From an uncultured Ignavibacteriales bacterium (GTDB lineage Bacteria > Bacteroidota > Ignavibacteria > Ignavibacteriales > Ignavibacteriaceae), in contig CAIYTF010000171.1 of assembly GCA_903929035.1 (NCBI GenBank), forward strand, positions 1 through 40,997: a stretch of 40,997 nt of DNA. Direction: 5' to 3'. Position numbers and translations under genes: made by a program. Under the pieces are notes generated by a model, which made no database searches, was not told where the DNA came from, and saw only the letters and a program-made list of their open reading frames with translations. Below are positions 4,275-37,233 of the stretch, piece by piece. The stretch's first letter is position 1; each line of letters opens with the position of its first letter.

Positions 4275-4380
4275 TCATTTTTTCCTTATTTATGATAAAT
4301 ATTGTCTTGAACTATGATTTTTACAAGCTAAATAATTACTGTCATAGTTCGGAGGGTAATTCAACTCCGATAACTAAGTC
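4275..4380. other. inverted-repeat-rich intergenic leader upstream of the DUF1573 gene
   Basis: Two overlapping hairpins lie upstream of the DUF1573 start: AACTATGA (4310-4317) with TCATAGTT (4342-4349), and AGTTCGGAG (4346-4354) with CTCCGATAACT (4365-4375). They cannot both form at once. No T run follows either on the minus strand, so a terminator is unlikely. An mRNA leader structure or repeat debris next to the dispersed repeat at 4381-4474 are both possible. Confidence 0.35.
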
Positions 4381-4474
4381 CTTGTAAAGAAATAACCTTT
4401 ACATCTTCTAAATCTAACCTTTGCGGTCTTCGCGTCTTCGCGTGAGAAATTGTAAATGTTATTTCTTATACAAG
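4381..4474 (-). repeat. dispersed inverted-repeat element, copy 1
   Basis: About 94 bases with imperfect terminal inverted repeats: CTTGTAAAGAAATAACCTTT at one end and, on the other strand, CTTGTATAAGAAATAACATT at the other. The core carries the periodic TTTGCGGTCTTCGCGTCTTCG. Read on the minus strand it aligns across most of its length with 11338-11429, including TCACGC-AAGA, GAAG, GTTA-ATTTA and GAAGATGTAAA-GTTATTT. It contains no ORF. The size and termini resemble a MITE. It fills the gap between the AAA ATPase gene and the DUF1573 operon. Confidence 0.6.
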
Positions 4475-4476
4475 CC

Positions 4477-6030
4477 CTAACAGTTAACTATATGAATCGT
4501 TTTACCGTCAATCTTTTCTGTTTTCCAATGTATTTTTTTGTCCCAGCTTTTCTTTTTGCTCCTGTCGAAAATAATAAGCCAACCGATATTTTCGCCCAGT
4601 GTTGTCAGATAATTGCTTAATTGCTCAAGCCCCTCTTTGACAACGGATTTTGAATACATTATTTTCAATTCAATCGGGTATTTGTTGTTTTCGTAAACCA
4701 CGCATAAATCCATTCGCTCCCTGCCGGAGGCATATTCTCTTATTATTTCACCCCCGCCGTTGATTATTCGCTGTAAAAATGCCTGTAATATTAAATGAGG
4801 AGCTGCTTCTTTATACTCGTATTTTTCCATCCAAATATCGGAGTTTTCACGCCAAAATTGCTGAAAGCCTTTTAACAATCCTGTCATATCGATATTACCT
4901 AAGCTATCTATCCATTTAATCGGCACTTGACTATTTAGATTAAATTGCGTGTTATAACTTAAAGTTCGTATAATAACTTCCGCGTATATTTTATTTGCCG
5001 GACGCAAAATTTTATCGGCATCTTTTATCAATCCCAAATCCAAACAATACCGCGTGTCATCGTCCAAAATATGTAGGTCGTTGGTTTTTCCCAAGATGAT
5101 AGATTCAATAATTTTTTGAACTCTCGGTTCTTTCAATTTATCAAGCAGGCTGTCAATATGAGTTTCCCGCCGCAATATTATGTTTTGGATCGCTTGGTCA
5201 ACAAGTTCAACGGTTATCCGCTTAGTATAATCATTTTCCAATATTTTTTGCGTTATTTCCCGGGCAATAGCATTCACGAGCCAAGGCTGTCCGTCAGTTT
5301 GGTCGAACACTCTATCAATTACCGGCTTTTCAAACACCTGTCCCGTTGCCGCTGTATGCTGCGCGTAAAGGGATTCAATATCCTCTATTGAAAAGTTTCT
5401 AATCGTTAAAGCGTCCGAAATAATATTAAAGGGACTCGCTGAACCGAGCGTAAATTGATTTTCTCTCACTTTGGATTTATAGTCCCTGATATTTCGCATT
5501 CCGACAAGTGCTATGCTGTGAACGAAAGGAACTTCGGGTCTGCTAATATAACCATCCCGCAGCTGCCGCAAAAAGGTCACCAAGGTACCGTCTTGCAATC
5601 CGTCTATTTCATCGATAAACAATATAAAAGGTTTGTCGAGAAGAGCACAATAATCCCTCAATGAATTTTTTACTAATGCCGATACATCATCGGAATTTTG
5701 ATTAACGCCAAAACTATCTTTATGAGGCAATTTCGAATATTTCAATTCCGATTTAATATTGGCGAGAATTTGGGGAATACCATCTTTGGGATCACCAAAA
5801 GCCTCGACCGCTTCCAAAGAACAATATAAAGCGTAATAATCACCGGCGGCGTTATAATAGTTTACCAACGCCTTGATTAACGTGGTTTTACCGGTTTGAC
5901 GCGCCGCGTGAATCACGAAATAATGTCCCTGATCTACTATACCGTAAATTTCTTTGTGCCTATTCAGCACCGGAACCATATAATGGCTTTTGTCGTTGCA
6001 AGGACCGGCTATGTTAAAGTATTTTTTCAT
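4477..6030 (-). CDS. AAA-like P-loop ATPase with C-terminal PD-(D/E)XK-like domain
   Basis: 517 residues. The N-terminal ATPase has Walker A ARQTGKTT (43-50), Walker B PFILFIDEIDGL and a following GMRNIRDYK arginine-rich segment. The middle (about 240-400) looks like a winged-helix or lid region. The C-terminus has the nuclease-superfamily pattern ERMDL..(Asp441)..IELKI (Glu454-x-Lys456). Such proteins are frequent in Bacteroidota and Cyanobacteria and resemble archaeal ATPase and AAA-ATPase-like families; the biological role is unknown. I chose ATG 6030 (MKKYFNIAGP) rather than 6093 because the longer version would lie deep in tsaB. Even so it overlaps the end of tsaB by 17 bases, suggesting read-through from the porX-tsaE-tsaB unit. 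A defence or DNA-repair role is possible but unproven. Confidence 0.8.
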   Translation of the reverse strand: MKKYFNIAGPCNDKSHYMVPVLNRHKEIYGIVDQGHYFVIHAARQTGKTTLIKALVNYYNAAGDYYALYCSLEAVEAFGDPKDGIPQILANIKSELKYSKLPHKDSFGVNQNSDDVSALVKNSLRDYCALLDKPFILFIDEIDGLQDGTLVTFLRQLRDGYISRPEVPFVHSIALVGMRNIRDYKSKVRENQFTLGSASPFNIISDALTIRNFSIEDIESLYAQHTAATGQVFEKPVIDRVFDQTDGQPWLVNAIAREITQKILENDYTKRITVELVDQAIQNIILRRETHIDSLLDKLKEPRVQKIIESIILGKTNDLHILDDDTRYCLDLGLIKDADKILRPANKIYAEVIIRTLSYNTQFNLNSQVPIKWIDSLGNIDMTGLLKGFQQFWRENSDIWMEKYEYKEAAPHLILQAFLQRIINGGGEIIREYASGRERMDLCVVYENNKYPIELKIMYSKSVVKEGLEQLSNYLTTLGENIGWLIIFDRSKKKSWDKKIHWKTEKIDGKTIHIVNC

Positions 6031-6706
6031 TGTTTTCTTTTGTCCGAATCGCGGTTTTATGTACCGTAAATTCTTTATAATATTCGGGTTCAATTAAATC
6101 AATTTCAGCAGGCTGAATTGCTTTGCCGAATTGCTCTGCCCATTTCGCGACAAAAAGCGGAGATGGACATACTAAATTAATAAAATTTCGCGACCTAAAC
6201 CAATTTGTGCTTCCTGCTACAAAATCAGATTCTGTTAGCCGTGTTTTCATTTCATCTTCTGTTACAACTTCCACGCTATGTTCAATTTCGAATCCATTAT
6301 CTATTATGGTGAATTTCGCGACAAAATATTCGGTTGTATTTACTTTAGAAGATACAAAAAAATGACTTCCTAACGGGAGAAAATTACTTAACTCAAAAGC
6401 GGCTGCCGAAAAAGTTGGAACCATAATAAGCGGTATCTGCACACCTGTGCAAATCCCTTTTCCGGCACTTAATCCGATACGCAAACCTGTAAACGACCCC
6501 GGACCCTCACTTACAGCAATACATCCCAGTTCTTTCGCGGTAATGCCGAAATTACTAAGACAATTATCAATAAGCGGGATTATTATTGAAGCGTGTTTCC
6601 TTGTTTCAAAGTGTTGAGTTTGAGTGTAGCGCGTTGAATCAAAGTAAATACCAACCGCGCAAACAGACGATGATGTTTCGACAGCTAAAATAGGGTATTT
6701 ATTCAT
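6014..6706 (-). CDS. tsaB: tRNA threonylcarbamoyladenosine biosynthesis protein TsaB
   Basis: Partner and scaffold of TsaD in the complex that attaches threonylcarbamoyl to A37 of ANN-decoding tRNAs. The 230-residue protein shows the ASKHA-fold start ILAVETSSSVCAVGIY (6-21), the conserved histidine segment ETRKHASIIIPLID and the hallmark EGPGSFTGLRIG (67-78). Its ATG overlaps the end of tsaE by eight bases (ATGAATAA), so TsaE and TsaB, which work in the same complex, are probably translationally coupled. Its own 3' end contains the start of the AAA ATPase gene. Confidence 0.93.
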   Translation of the reverse strand: MNKYPILAVETSSSVCAVGIYFDSTRYTQTQHFETRKHASIIIPLIDNCLSNFGITAKELGCIAVSEGPGSFTGLRIGLSAGKGICTGVQIPLIMVPTFSAAAFELSNFLPLGSHFFVSSKVNTTEYFVAKFTIIDNGFEIEHSVEVVTEDEMKTRLTESDFVAGSTNWFRSRNFINLVCPSPLFVAKWAEQFGKAIQPAEIDLIEPEYYKEFTVHKTAIRTKENNEKIL

Positions 6707-7130
6707 ATTTCAAAACCTTGATAAACCGTTCGGTATCTTCACCAATCTCAATTGAAATATCAATTCTATTTAGAGGAAGCACCTCAGGGAACATATTTGC
6801 CCATTCGATTACAATAATTGATTCAGCATCGCCAATCATTTCAAAATAACCTATATCAAAAAGCTCTTCGCTTAACTGAATCCGGTAGAAGTCCAGATGA
6901 TAGAATTTACAACTGCCTGCATACACGTTTACTAATGAAAAAGTAGGGCTGCTAATTTGCTTGATGCCGAATTTCGATGTAATATATTTGGTTATGAAAG
7001 TTTTTCCTGCACCCAATTCTCCATTCAGTGTTACACAAGTTCCGGGAATAATATACTCAAATATTATATCGATAACTGTTTTTGTTTCTTCTTCGGAAAT
7101 AACCCGTTCATCAACAAGCACTACTGTCAA
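6699..7130 (-). CDS. tsaE: tRNA threonylcarbamoyladenosine biosynthesis ATPase TsaE
   Basis: The small P-loop ATPase that drives the TsaB-TsaD t6A complex. Its 143 residues include Walker A GELGAGKT (37-44), the switch-like SPTFSLVNVY (61-70), FYHLDFYRI (77-84) and VIEWAN (107-112), all diagnostic for the family. The start is a TTG at 7130 embedded in the TTGA overlap with the porX stop, so translation probably re-initiates from porX. No separate promoter is visible. Confidence 0.93.
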   Translation of the reverse strand: MTVVLVDERVISEEETKTVIDIIFEYIIPGTCVTLNGELGAGKTFITKYITSKFGIKQISSPTFSLVNVYAGSCKFYHLDFYRIQLSEELFDIGYFEMIGDAESIIVIEWANMFPEVLPLNRIDISIEIGEDTERFIKVLKYE

Positions 7131-8698
7131 TCTTTGGTCTCCATAGTAATGACAGGGAGTATCATTTCTTCCAATGAAATGCCTCCGTGCTGGAAAGTGT
7201 CTTTATAGTAAGACAGATATTTATGATAATCTGTTGGATAGACAAAATAATAATCTTCTTTTGCAATAATATAATTGACCGTCATTCCTCGTTTGGGTAA
7301 TCTATATTCTCCCGCGTCCCTGATAAATAGCGCGTGTTTATCTTCAACTTTCAAATTCCTTCCATACTTAAAGCGAAGGTTAGTAGAAGTTTCTCTATCG
7401 CCTAATACTTTTGCGCCGCGCATCGATCTTATACTGCCGTGGTCAGTGGTGATTATTACTTTAACATTTTTCATTTTACTGATTGTCTTAAATGTATTCA
7501 GCAAAGAAGAATGCGTAAACCAGCTGTTAGTAAGCGAACGATATGCCGGTTCATTCGGGGCAATCTCTTTTAGTAATTCCGAATCAGACCTGCCATGCGC
7601 GACCATATCAAGAAAATTGACTACAACCGCGGTTAGATTATTATTTCTATAAGACATCACGTTTTGTTCAAAATTGCGTCCGACTTCAGGGTCAATGATT
7701 TTAATATATTTCAGTTCATTACGCAGTTTTACTTTTTTCCTGTCTAACAGAAGCTGAAGAAAATCTTTCTCGTATTTATTCATACTTCTCTCGTCATCAT
7801 CAGAACCTTTCCACAGATCAGGATAATATTTTTCAATGTCACCGGGAAATAAACCGGCGAAAAGAGCATTACGGGAATATGCTGTTGCTGTTGGAAGTAT
7901 CGAATAATAATAATCTTTTTTAATTCGGAAAATATCACTCAGGTGCGATTCCATCAGCATCCACTGGTCAAGTCTGAGGCAGTCAAGCACGAAGAAAAAC
8001 ACGTTTGCATCTTCATTCTTCAATTCAGGAATAACATAGTCGGGAACAATATCAGTGGTTATTAGCGGACGATTATCTCTTTTGCTCGAGTTAATCCATT
8101 TTACATAGTTTTTTTCAACATATTTAGAGAACTCCTGATTACATTCTTTTCGCTGGTCATTAAAAGTTTGGCGTAACCCGATATCAGGGTGTAAGTCTAA
8201 CTCCATATCCCAATTCACTAACTTTAGGTAGATATCAATCCACTCTTCGTAATTGAGAGAATCATTCAACCGCGTAGTTATTCGATTAAAATCCTGTATA
8301 TAATCTTTTGCCGCGTATTGACTTGAAAGCTCTTTACTTTCCAATATTTTTTTGCACACTAATATCAATTGACTTGGATTTACAGGCTTAGTAAGATAAT
8401 CGCTAATCTTTCCGCCGATAGCTTCGTTCATTATGGATTCTTCTTCATTCTTTGTTACCATAACAACAGGAATATTTGTATCAAAGTCTTTAATTTTGCC
8501 AAGCAGCTCTAATCCGCCCATCCCGGGCATCATCTCGTCAAGAAAAATAAGCCCGAACTCATTCTCCTTGAGCATTTCAAGGGCATCAAAACCATTTGTT
8601 GCAGTTAGAACCTCATAGCCTCGTTCTGTAAGTAATATTATATGCGAGCGAAATAGTTCTATCTCGTCATCAACCCAAAGAATTTTTTTTGTTTTCAT
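7127..8698 (-). CDS. porX: PorX-type response regulator with PglZ domain
   Basis: 523 residues, close to the usual PorX length. The N-terminal receiver (1-120) has the acidic pocket Asp10-Asp11, phospho-acceptor Asp54 (IFLDEMMPG) and Lys104 (YLTKP). A helical linker leads to an alkaline-phosphatase-fold PglZ domain (about 215-523) with metal and catalytic elements VLDCLRLDQW (Asp239), LPTATAYSRN (Thr270/Thr272), MVAHGRSDSE and TTDHGS (Asp419-His420). In Bacteroidota PorX, paired with the kinase PorY, controls type IX secretion gene expression; no porY is in this window. It heads a tight operon with tsaE and tsaB. All key residues appear intact, so it should be functional. Confidence 0.88.
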   Translation of the reverse strand: MKTKKILWVDDEIELFRSHIILLTERGYEVLTATNGFDALEMLKENEFGLIFLDEMMPGMGGLELLGKIKDFDTNIPVVMVTKNEEESIMNEAIGGKISDYLTKPVNPSQLILVCKKILESKELSSQYAAKDYIQDFNRITTRLNDSLNYEEWIDIYLKLVNWDMELDLHPDIGLRQTFNDQRKECNQEFSKYVEKNYVKWINSSKRDNRPLITTDIVPDYVIPELKNEDANVFFFVLDCLRLDQWMLMESHLSDIFRIKKDYYYSILPTATAYSRNALFAGLFPGDIEKYYPDLWKGSDDDERSMNKYEKDFLQLLLDRKKVKLRNELKYIKIIDPEVGRNFEQNVMSYRNNNLTAVVVNFLDMVAHGRSDSELLKEIAPNEPAYRSLTNSWFTHSSLLNTFKTISKMKNVKVIITTDHGSIRSMRGAKVLGDRETSTNLRFKYGRNLKVEDKHALFIRDAGEYRLPKRGMTVNYIIAKEDYYFVYPTDYHKYLSYYKDTFQHGGISLEEMILPVITMETKD

Positions 8699-8852
8699 AC
8701 TATCATTATTTTTCTGTAATTACTGTTTAAACTAATTATTTTTCGCGTAACGGAAAATACTAAATTCAATATCTATATTAGAACTATTTTGCTACATAAT
8801 AAGACTATCAAACCGGTAAATAGTTCCCAACAATTATTTCAAAGGTTACAAA
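8699..8852. other. divergent promoter region between porX and the CitE-like gene
   Basis: 154 bases separate two divergently transcribed genes, so promoters for both should lie here. The sequence is AT-rich. TATTTTG at about 8788 resembles a Bacteroidota -7 element but lacks one base of TAnnTTTG. No strong palindrome is evident. Confidence 0.35.
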
Positions 8853-10211
8853 ATGGCAGAGACATCAAGAATACTCGGCGAAAACTATACAGCGTCACAA
8901 GCAGACTCCTTGGGTGATTTTTCGTATCTATCTTCAATAGAAAGCAATAACAGGCAGCCAATGCACACCCTCTATGGCGGTGCGCATCTCTTTAAACGAG
9001 ATAGTTTAGTTAGATTTCAATCAATAATGAATCACTACCGGACAACTTATCTTCCTTATCCTGAATCATTAATGCTGCTGCTTGAAATGTCAGGGCGGGG
9101 AATTATTGCAGAAGATGCGGAGCAGCTTATAAACGAGACATTTCATTTAATTTGCTCGAAAATTGATTCCAATCCCGTTGAAGATTACAGGATTGACTTT
9201 GAAGACGGCTATGGCTGCCATACAGATGATGATGAAAATGCCGCGGCACAGTTCGCGGCAAATGAAGCGGCAATTGCTTTCGCGGAATCTCTCCTGCCAA
9301 ACCGTTTTGGAACCAGAATTAAATCTCTATCCGGTTCAACACGAAAAAGAGCATTAGATACACTTGATATTTTTATCAGTACTTTCTTGGATGCTTCTGC
9401 CGGTAAACTGCCGAAAGGATTCGTGATAACTTTGCCGAAAATTACCCGCCCTGATGAGGTTGAACTTCTTTGTGAAACGCTTAGCGAAATAGAATTTCGT
9501 GCCGGACTAAAACTAAACACCATTAAAATTGAACTTATGGTCGAGGAACCCGCTTTACTTTCTGATGAAAAGGGAAATTCTCAATTACTTAATCTTCTCA
9601 AATCCGGTTTCGGACGTACCATTGGATTGCATATCGGGATTTATGACTATCTTTCCGCGCTTGGAGTTCCCGCGGGCTTTCAAATCTACACGCATCCTTT
9701 TGTAAATGATCTGCGCGGACAAATTTTGCTCTCGACAAATTCTTTTGCTGTTGACGTTGTTGACGGCGTGACAAATACATTGCCGGTTGAAATACATCGC
9801 GGAAAAGATTTGAGCCCTGACCGGAAAGATGAAAATAAGCAGATAGTATTCAAAGGATGGAGTGAGCATTTATATAATGTGACTGAATCCCTAAAGTACG
9901 GTATTTTGCAGGGATGGGATATTCATCCCGCGCAATGTATTGCCCGGTATATCGCGGTGTATATCCACTTGTTAGAAGGCCGTGATAGCACGATTCAACG
10001 TATGAAACGATTTATTTCCGATGCAGCTAAACCGGGACAATCAAAAGGAGTGTTTGATGATGCCGCTACAATTCGCGGATTACTCGTGTATCTCGGGAAT
10101 GCCGCGAATAATGGCGTTATCACCGATGCTCATCTAATCGGATTAAATTTAACAAAAGCTATGCTTGATTTACCATCGGTTGAAATTCTAAAAAGAATAG
10201 GGATATTATAA
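8853..10211 (+). CDS. CitE/HpcH-HpaI-type lyase family protein (DUF6986-like)
   Basis: 452 residues, cytoplasmic, with a TIM-barrel pattern of the HpcH/HpaI aldolase-citrate lyase superfamily. Visible active-site-like segments are YRIDFEDGYG (112-121, acidic metal-binding position), GTRIKSL (153-159), IELMVEEP (226-233), HIGIYDYL (260-267) and GWDIHPAQ (354-361), equivalent to the C-terminal loop of CitE and malate synthase-like enzymes. It is longer than CitE and probably belongs to the uncharacterised DUF6986 group. A malyl-CoA-type lyase or malate-synthase-like reaction is reasonable; the substrate is unknown. It is monocistronic and its last six bases overlap the convergent lrgB. Confidence 0.7.
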   Translation: MAETSRILGENYTASQADSLGDFSYLSSIESNNRQPMHTLYGGAHLFKRDSLVRFQSIMNHYRTTYLPYPESLMLLLEMSGRGIIAEDAEQLINETFHLICSKIDSNPVEDYRIDFEDGYGCHTDDDENAAAQFAANEAAIAFAESLLPNRFGTRIKSLSGSTRKRALDTLDIFISTFLDASAGKLPKGFVITLPKITRPDEVELLCETLSEIEFRAGLKLNTIKIELMVEEPALLSDEKGNSQLLNLLKSGFGRTIGLHIGIYDYLSALGVPAGFQIYTHPFVNDLRGQILLSTNSFAVDVVDGVTNTLPVEIHRGKDLSPDRKDENKQIVFKGWSEHLYNVTESLKYGILQGWDIHPAQCIARYIAVYIHLLEGRDSTIQRMKRFISDAAKPGQSKGVFDDAATIRGLLVYLGNAANNGVITDAHLIGLNLTKAMLDLPSVEILKRIGIL

Positions 10212-10910
10212 CCACTTTTCAAACAGTTTAATTATCCAAGGTGCAAACAGGGCAGTAAAAATACCGTTTAGTATCAAGCCTATTGTAGCAAATGCTCCGT
10301 GCCGTTCACTCAATTCAGCCGCTCGCGCTGTGCCTAAACCGTGAGCGGCAGTACCCATTGCAATACCTGCTGCATCCTGGTGTTTTACGCGGATTATCTT
10401 CAAAAACCAAAGCCCTGCAACTGAACCTAATATCCCGACAGTAACAACAACACCCGCGCTAACCGATGGGATTCCGCCAATTGAATTTGAAATTTCCATT
10501 GCAAGCGGTGTTGTTACCGACTTTGGCACTAAAGACAATATTATCGGTTTAGAAGCTCCAAATATTTTTGCAAAAATTATGACTGACACTATACCCGTTA
10601 CGCACCCTGCAAGTTGTGAAAGAATAATGCCGTTTTTCTGCTTTTTTATGTGTTCCAGATTAAGATATAATGGAACTCCCAATGCAACAATTGCAGGTTT
10701 AAGCAGAAGACTTATAAAATTGCCTCCCTTGCTATACGTACTGTAAGGAATACCGAATATTTGTAAAAAAGCTATTAACGTAATAATGGTTGTTAGCACG
10801 GGATTTAGAAAAAACAAATTAAACCGCGAATACAGTTTCTGAAACACGAAATACAAACCAAAGGTAAGAGCAATTGCAAAAGTATCCGAACCAAGAAGAA
10901 AATTATTCAT
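10206..10910 (-). CDS. lrgB: LrgB/CidB family membrane protein
   Basis: 234 residues with six to eight hydrophobic segments and the family core LVPKSVTTPLAMEIS followed by GTAAHGLGTARAAELSERHGAFA. LrgB/CidB proteins act with the holin-like LrgA/CidA; in other bacteria the pair modulates autolysis and transports pyruvate or, in plastids, glycolate. The ATG at 10910 overlaps the restored end of lrgA by eight bases (ATGAATAA), the normal lrgAB coupling. The 3' end overlaps the convergent lyase gene by six bases. LrgB itself looks intact although its partner is frameshifted. Confidence 0.88.
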   Translation of the reverse strand: MNNFLLGSDTFAIALTFGLYFVFQKLYSRFNLFFLNPVLTTIITLIAFLQIFGIPYSTYSKGGNFISLLLKPAIVALGVPLYLNLEHIKKQKNGIILSQLAGCVTGIVSVIIFAKIFGASKPIILSLVPKSVTTPLAMEISNSIGGIPSVSAGVVVTVGILGSVAGLWFLKIIRVKHQDAAGIAMGTAAHGLGTARAAELSERHGAFATIGLILNGIFTALFAPWIIKLFEKWL

Positions 10911-11245
10911 TTTCTTTCTTGGTTTTTTGATACACCCAGCCGGTTACAGCAAGCACTATCATTGTACTCAATACAGATGACAGCAATATAGCAGCAAGCT
11001 CATTTTTTAATACATCAAAATATAACATTATTGCCACGCCGGGAGGAATGAAAAAAAAAAGAGATATTCGAAACAAAAAATTCAGAAATAGCCTGAACCT
11101 GCCGAAGTTTTACGAATTTTAGTTTTAGCAAACCGGTTAGCAGCAGCATACCTATGATGCTTGCAGGTATTTTGATACCGGTGATAAATACTACTATTTC
11201 ACCAACGAAGAGACAACCGAAAATTATGGCACATTGTTTAATCAT
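10903..11245 (-). pseudogene. lrgA: LrgA/CidA-family holin-like protein, frameshifted at a T10 run
   Basis: Reading from ATG 11245 gives MIKQCAIIFGCLFVGEIVVF..KIPASIIGMLLL, the normal LrgA start with the PxSxxGM motif. After SNISFFF the frame leaves the family pattern and ends at 11015. Removing one T from the ten-T run (11051-11060 on the plus strand as A10) restores FFFIPPGVAIMLYFD and stays open for about 50 more residues to a TAA at 10903, overlapping the lrgB start. The restored product is about 113 residues, the usual LrgA length with four membrane segments. A true inactivating insertion, slippage-tolerant expression, phase variation or a sequencing error are all possible. Confidence 0.8.
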
Positions 11246-11337
11246 TTTTGTAATGCTAAAATACTGATTATTTGTGTTTAGTGAAAGTTTATGCTATTTT
11301 CAAGATTTATATGGAAATGCAGATATTGCAATGCTAT

Positions 11338-11429
11338 GGGTTTGTTCACAAATAACAGTAACACTTTATCACGCTAAGATCGTGAAGGTTATATTTACGA
11401 AGATGTAAATGTTATTTGCGGGCAATCCC
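11338..11429 (+). repeat. dispersed inverted-repeat element, copy 2
   Basis: About 92 bases between lrgA and cysS. The ends (GGGTTTGTTCACAAATAAC and, reverse complemented, GGGATTGCCCGCAAATAAC) are imperfect inverted repeats. The interior TCACGCTAAGATCGTGAAG, then GTTATATTTACGAAGATG, then TAAATGTTATTT aligns with the minus strand of the 4381-4474 element; the main difference is a nine-base gap. There is no coding potential. Its orientation is opposite to copy 1 on the chromosome. Confidence 0.6.
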
Positions 11430-11505
11430 TAAGTAGGTAGTTTTTTTATAACCTTTCCGAATTATTGCGTATTTTCTATTTTATATATTAAAAATTTATG
11501 CGAAA

Positions 11506-14707: not shown

Positions 14708-14788
14708 GTAACTACTCAGCCATCTACCAAAACGAGCTCTGATTATGAAAAAATGATAGCTCCTTTTGGTAGATGGCTGAGTAGTTAC
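14708..14788. repeat. 81-base inverted-repeat element ending GTAACTACTCAGCC
   Basis: A perfect 25-base inverted repeat: the left arm at 14708-14732 starts GTAACTACTCAGCC and ends CTACCAAAA, and the right arm is 14764-14788. The pairing continues imperfectly inward (GAGCT opposite AGCTC), so nearly the whole element can fold. The same 14-base terminus opens the larger element at 25038-25304, so these are two members of one repeat family. No coding content. It looks like a non-autonomous mobile or REP-like element. Confidence 0.75.
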
Positions 14789-25004: not shown

Positions 25005-25358
25005 TTAAATTCCTTTTCTCTATAAGTTACAAATCCTGTAACTACTCAGCCTGTTCTTGAATTTGTCCCTACGGGACTAAATTTGAATAACCGTGAGTGC
25101 TAACTCACGGAAAAGTAAGCCCAAACAAATAACGTCCCCGATAGGGGGCGAACTAACTATGCGGCATAAATTTGCCCCCTTCGGGGATAGATGCTTTTTA
25201 TCATTCTCCCGTGAGTTGTCACTCACGGTTATTCAAATTTAGTCCCTTTGGGACATAATATCCGTACCGTATATTTTCTTGATTTCAGGAGACTGAGCAG
25301 TTACCAAATCCTTAAAGGGCGTTCGCCAATAGTTAATAGTAAGTTCATAATTAACCAT
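25005..25358. other. 354-base gap between cheB and hybrid kinase 2, mostly a repeat element
   Basis: Most of the gap is the 267-base inverted-repeat element (25038-25304). The remaining bases next to cheB and next to the kinase gene are AT-rich and show no gene. Any promoter for the kinase pair would have to lie within or beside the repeat on the minus strand. Confidence 0.6.
25038..25304. repeat. 267-base hairpin-rich repeat ending GTAACTACTCAGCC
   Basis: The outer ends GTAACTACTCAG (25038-25049) and CTGAGCAGTTAC (25293-25304) are inverted. Inside, a 47-base arm at 25064-25110 is nearly perfectly complementary to 25209-25255; each arm itself contains two small hairpins (TGTCCC..GGGAC and CCGTGAGT..ACTCACGG). 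In the centre CCCCGATAGGGGGC (25136-25149) opposes GCCCCCTTCGGGG (25174-25186). There is no ORF. The left end is identical over 14 bases to the element at 14708. The design resembles REP/BIME-type or IS200/IS605-derived non-autonomous elements, but no transposase is present here. Confidence 0.75.
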
Positions 25359-33056: not shown

Positions 33057-33097
33057 CGCGTAGCGTGGGTAAAATGATATTTCTTAACGCGCCCTAA
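33057..33097. repeat. possible degenerate remnant of the dispersed repeat, copy 3
   Basis: CGCGTAGCGTGGG, then AAAATGATATTTCTTA and GCCCTAA, line up in order with the right half of the element at 4381-4480 (CGCGTCTTCGCGTGAG, AAATGTTATTTCTTA, GCCCTAA). Only the right half is recognisable, in the gap between cheR and nadK. Confidence 0.35.
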
Positions 33098-36872: not shown

Positions 36873-37226
36873 GGGGGTGAATTTGGCTTCGACGGGATTA
36901 TAGACGCATAGGAATGCAAGCCGTGTTCCCCGCAACAACGTTAAAATTGTGGAAAAAACAATAACTGGCGAATCTAATTACGCCTTAGCCGCTTAATAAA
37001 ATAAGCAGCCGTTCTCATTAAATGTTCGCACCGGTTTAATTGAGAGCGCCGTTTAGGTGCGATTGCCAAATCGAGATTCGGGTAGAAGAGGTGAAAAACC
37101 AACCGTATAGCTTATAGATAATCCTGTTAACCGGAGTTTCAATAAGTGAAATTAAATGATTAACTACGCTTGTAGAGGTCCTTTGGATCATAATTTCGGA
37201 CGCGGGTTCGACTCCCGCCACCTCCA
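36873..37226 (+). ncRNA. ssrA: transfer-messenger RNA (tmRNA)
   Basis: The 5' end GGGGGTGAATTTGGCTTCG and 3' end GGGTTCGACTCCCGCCACCT are hallmarks of one-piece tmRNA. The acceptor stem GGGGGTG (36873-36879) pairs over seven positions with CACCTCC (37219-37225), one pair being G-U. The T arm is GCGGGTTCGACTCCCGC (37202-37218). CCA is not encoded. The tag reading frame at 36967-36996 gives GESNYALAA then TAA TAA, with the Ala-Ala end recognised by proteases and a sequence like Bacteroidetes tags. It rescues stalled ribosomes. It begins two bases after the cobO-type stop, so it may share that transcript or be processed from it. Confidence 0.95.
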
Positions 37227-37233
37227 CTACTGT

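Follow-up and report, generated by a model that had tools for sequence, protein, structure and literature searches.

Two inverted-repeat sequences in a 40,997-nucleotide stretch of DNA from an uncultured Ignavibacteriales bacterium (contig CAIYTF010000171.1, positions 1 to 40,997; hereafter the window) belong to a large family of dispersed elements in the same genome, and by the features tested this family is a MITE. Comparison of its ends and target sites with those of complete elements in other bacteria points to a type II MITE that very probably owes its spread to an ISAzo13-family DDE transposase acting in trans.

The original prediction held that positions 4381-4474 and 11338-11429 were two opposed copies of one repeat. 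Their alignment score of 62-65 bears this out, since the rest of the window reaches only about 30 when the copies and their own palindromes are excluded. The boundaries predicted for the second copy stand as given, whereas alignment of the family extends the first by 3 bp at each end (Table 1). The repeated TCTTCGCG unit is also genuine, with three units in copy 1 and two in copy 2, and the nine-base indel that had been noted between the copies corresponds to about one inner unit; the data agree with the suggestion of internal unit expansion within a dispersed inverted-repeat mobile element. The left flanking triplet of copy 2, TAT, is probably a decayed TAA. An ORF at 4477-6093 ends in a TAG stop codon (4477-4479, minus strand) that takes its TA from the duplication and its G from the first base of copy 1. 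Folding of both window copies beats that of shuffled sequences on both strands, with z values of -4.7 to -7.3. A third half-copy had been proposed at 33057-33097, but the match there covers 15 bp, has a chance-level score of 25 and is absent from the profile matches at E ≤ 1e-3, and it was rejected.

Table 1. Positions in the window of the two MITE copies, their flanking triplets and their inner arrays.
Feature	Position	Strand	Remarks
MITE copy 1	4378..4477	-	100 bp, three inner units
Target duplication TAA, one side of copy 1	4375..4377	.	Read from sequence; family pattern
Target duplication TAA, other side of copy 1	4478..4480	.	Read from sequence; overlaps TAG stop
Inner array, copy 1	4419..4443	-	Three units of 8-9 bp; core length classes
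MITE copy 2	11338..11429	+	92 bp, two inner units
Left flank triplet TAT, copy 2	11335..11337	.	Read from sequence
Right flank triplet TAA, copy 2	11430..11432	.	Read from sequence
Inner array, copy 2	11371..11387	+	Two units, read from sequence

A genome-wide search for further copies revealed many in the source genome (3.36 Mb in 222 contigs). Scoring the best 40 of 251 candidates with copy 1 as the query gave at least 56 matches, and scoring the best 40 of 126 with copy 2 gave at least 43, these counts including some matches to palindromes or neighbouring copies. The end pattern TWAGGRCTYGTTMAGAAATAAC, with up to three mismatches, occurs 298 times in the genome, against a single match for the reversed control. 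A profile built from 56 copies identified 103 distinct copies within 407,915 bases that were picked mostly for holding copies; 79 of these copies are full length, and scaling by the end matches puts the genome-wide total at roughly 216. Full copies measure 82-107 bp with their triplets, the element itself being mostly 90-100 bp long, and no transposase gene lies within it. The consensus of the two-unit form is GGACTCGTTCAGAAATAACATTAACACTTTCTCACGCGAAGACCGCGAAGGTTAGATTTAGAAGATGTAAAGGTTATTTCTTTACAAGGAC, with TWA on both flanks. The inverted ends ascribed to the window copies are real and imperfect across the family, and they are longer than the GTTATTT originally described, at about 30 bp. Between two fixed points, the core of the element spans 8-11 bp in six of the 79 full copies, 16-19 bp in 40, 25-27 bp in 27 and some other length in six. 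The first three length classes correspond to between one and three units of 8-9 bp, and the number of units probably changes through slippage or unequal exchange.

Target-site duplications had been proposed as a check on mobility, and a 3-bp TWA duplication was found. The triplets on either side are identical in 52/79 full copies (TTA/TTA in 34, TAA/TAA in 18) and non-identical in 27/79, whereas 10,000 shuffles gave 31.8 identical pairs on average and never more than 46. The base preceding the triplet is C or T in 57/79 copies and the base following it is G or A in 66/79, and the target therefore looks like YTWAR. On contig C110 one copy is nested within another, and when the inner copy is taken out with a single TTA retained, the outer copy is recovered (64 bits, model positions 4-95); a second, partial nest is present on contig C82. 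The search for empty sites thus provided one clean pre-insertion site, although it comes from a nested paralogous copy and not from the allele of a relative. No orthologous empty site was readable because the same-genus genome (G001) aligns over only 239 bp, all of it coding DNA.

The same end is found in other bacteria. Scanning the species-genome collection for exact matches to the 22-bp end returned 21 stretches in 13 genomes of unrelated bacteria, the carriers including Omnitrophota, Elusimicrobia, Bacteroidota, Chlorobiota, Desulfocapsa, a cyanobacterium and others. Ten of these 13 genomes contain at least eight ends at no more than two mismatches, while the reversed control gave two matches over all 13. 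For 13 of the 21 stretches a TWA-flanked partner end lies 88-379 bp away and matches at no fewer than 16 of the 22 positions; the triplets are equal in 11 of these 13, in a partner search that imposed TWA and slightly favoured equal triplets. The other eight stretches comprise three that run into contig ends (L138, L139, L150), one intact IS (L144, which is the L188 locus described below), a Bradyrhizobium stretch (L145), a 25-bp palindrome (L133) and two, L142 and L149, in which no clear TWA-flanked partner was found. The interiors vary between genomes, and the elements are mostly MITEs with unrelated interiors. No viral contig matched the end. Among plasmids, a short query gave five weak matches (best E 0.08), and the end of the G460 element described below gave two. 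The palindrome of L133 (1406-1436) has TTA on both sides and resembles two overlapping ISAzo13-type ends with nothing between them.

The transposase with a matching end that had been sought lies not in the window but in a different genome. An intact ISAzo13 IS from an Opitutales genome (L188) begins with TAA followed by GGGCTCGTTAAGAAATAACTATCGCAATTCG and finishes with CAAATTGCAACACTTATTATTTAACAGATCC followed by TAA; its end TAA-GGGCTCGTTAAGAAATAAC fits the 22-bp pattern exactly, with TAA also on the other side. The encoded transposase of 424 aa matches PF07592 (DDE_Tnp_ISAZ013; annotated ISStsp1, ISRop2) over its whole length with 464 bits, and shares up to about 60% identity, among the matches listed, with plasmid proteins annotated as ISAzo13 family. 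The IS and the MITE have the L188 end and the TWA duplication in common. They differ in that the MITE has no transposase gene, is 80-100 bp long compared with approximately 1.3 kb, and has an unrelated interior where this could be seen. Further ISAzo13 elements are built alike at their ends, which come shortly past the stop codon, for example TTA-GGATCTGTTAATAAATAAG in L203 and TTA-GGAAGAATAAATAAATAAC in L200, and a plasmid element bearing an ISAzo13-family annotation (L229) has the ends TAA-GGACACGTCGATAA and TAA-GGACGTGTCGATAA. A TAA/TAA duplication is present in L188, L200, L203 and L229, as in the TWA of the MITE; TWA was imposed by the search for the first three and was free for L229. One of the six named plasmid ISAzo13 elements taken, from Mesorhizobium, showed both ends; the others gave no convincing end pair, and four of the stretches stop inside the annotated gene.

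The source genome itself contains three ISAzo13 remnants (C140:5-286, C1:21575-21884 and C2:57008-57205). The end of the C140 remnant, GGTATAAATTAGAAATAAC, is a partial match to the MITE end, and a MITE-like copy lies directly downstream of the C2 remnant. No intact ISAzo13 was found among the 222 contigs, two of the remnants lying at contig ends, and mobilisation by ISAzo13 is therefore probable, not proven. PF07592 was detected in 5/14 genomes tested, the source included, in 0/14 controls and in 34/395 genomes of the phylum; of the 13 further genomes listed from the window's taxonomic family, none had it. We propose that an ISAzo13 transposase would bind the GGRCTYGTTMAGAAATAAC ends and move the element, that insertion would occur at a YTWAR-like site, and that the surviving copies would be mostly intergenic.

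As regards surroundings, 68/79 full copies fall clear of any ORF of 100 aa or more, compared with 20% of random positions. With every copy entered a single time, 42/79 copies within 150 nt behind a gene are in the sense orientation only, eight in antisense only, three in both and 26 in neither. This sense excess holds across three ORF cut-offs and three distances, with one-sided binomial p values of 1e-6 to 4e-5 that treat copies as independent. The ORFs are greedy open frames as opposed to curated genes, and counting only the larger stretches leaves 18 sense to two antisense. In 12/79 copies, copy 1 among them, the gene ahead of the element has a stop codon that overlaps the target triplet. 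With regard to the replication strand as a possible cause of the bias, the strand of the element matches the sign of the local GC skew in 25/35 copies and the majority gene strand in 22/35.

Such a pattern raises the question of whether the element, whatever its origin, is kept as a host module that provides a stop codon and a 3'-UTR hairpin in one orientation. The excess of sense copies behind genes, the strong hairpins and the overlapping stop codons all speak for this. However, both strands fold about equally well, and an insertion bias would yield the same picture. Moreover, divergence is equal in the two orientations, the median identity to the consensus being 0.897 for sense and 0.901 for antisense copies, which gives no sign of selection, and selection against antisense copies was rejected on the same grounds. 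We consider retention as a host module unlikely. A broader proposal, which we offer as possible but tentative, is that sense placement is not passive, either because ISAzo13 insertion is tied to a DNA strand or to transcription or because the host has retained sense copies as stop-codon and 3'-UTR hairpins, and that one conserved ISAzo13 end seeded separate MITE families in many phyla.

The main weakness of the ISAzo13 link is that 9/13 of the other end-bearing genomes have no PF07592 match, which may reflect incomplete assemblies or the action of another transposase. The latter would fit a MITE moved by a different transposase family with ISAzo13-like ends, for example the G460 element, whose ends TWA-GGCACTGTCAAGAAATAAC and TWA-GTCAGTGTCAAGAAATAAC show the same GG/GT asymmetry as the MITE and whose gene, starting MSKQEVY, is readable only up to contig ends. 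Against this, the exact end sits on a single intact element, which is an ISAzo13, and ISAzo13 remnants are present in the source genome; we judge a different transposase to be unlikely. The G460 IS loci (L169, L177 and L181-L186) have TWA-flanked ends and the MSKQEVY gene and are always cut by a contig end. They came to light through a search for a PF01609 transposase, in which two loci carried the end at four mismatches. PF01609 itself was rejected as the partner, its two matches in the source genome having ends unlike those of the MITE and 0/25 loci in ten other genomes having the MITE end at three or fewer mismatches. Finally, a REP/BIME-like repeat mobilised by a RAYT (Y1) transposase would likewise be short, palindromic, intergenic and of high copy number, but it is contradicted by the 3-bp target duplication and the long terminal inverted repeats, Y1 transposition not being known to leave a target duplication, and is very improbable.

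Returning to the ISAzo13-linked MITE, the copies are well diverged, the median identity being 89% when they are compared with the consensus and 82% when they are compared with one another. Among the 79 full copies, not one of the 3081 pairs is 98% or more identical, which indicates that the burst is old. At no more than two mismatches, the end occurs 218 times in the source genome and not at all in the same-genus genome, and 2/195 relatives carry one match each. From these comparisons the burst is old and, as far as sampled, private to the source species, and it would postdate the split from the sequenced same-genus relative. Because the copies have diverged and the ISAzo13 genes in the source genome are fragments, the burst has probably ended.

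The inner octamer ACGCRAAGACGCRAAG occurs in 30/296 genomes of the phylum, including the source genome, against 3/296 for the reversed control. It was rejected as a marker of the family elsewhere, as the 29 loci in other genomes were, by eye, without the element ends. The contexts of the octamer pair are varied, and some are hairpins with the octamer on both arms (L103-L132, without L118). A text search of the literature for the octamer found no paper.

MITEs as such are a known kind of element; the link to ISAzo13 and the sense orientation are unusual. As described, BrickBuilt of Porphyromonas gingivalis is likewise a MITE of the wider Bacteroidota group that is intergenic and contains inner tandem units, but its units are of 23 bp and its copies number 19, compared with 8-9 bp and about 200 here (PMC4596501). 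Rickettsia palindromic elements, as described, can sit in frame inside genes (PMC10969869). A copy at C48:6069-6173 is similar in this respect, lying within an open 402-aa frame that is read through and gains about 34 readable residues (L089), whereas nearly all copies of the present family are intergenic. A Thiomargarita MITE differs in having, as described, 10-bp direct repeats (PMC4853749). A literature search found no paper on ISAzo13 MITEs, with most subscription journals outside its reach; as far as searched, three findings are new: the MITE-ISAzo13 link, the sense bias, and the presence of one end on separate MITE families in many phyla. Short repeats of obscure origin that have the same 22-bp end across phyla are thereby linked with a single transposase family, which opens them to annotation and testing, and the orientation bias is a concrete and testable oddity.

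Two other features of the window were noted. A tmRNA gene at 36873-37229 is its sole Rfam match at the gathering score. A second dispersed repeat, with the inverted ends GTAACTACTCAGCC/GGCTGAGTAGTTAC, is present at 14708-14788 and at 25038-25305, one end being slightly altered in the latter, and is also carried by several contig ends of the genome; its ends may resemble those of IS66.
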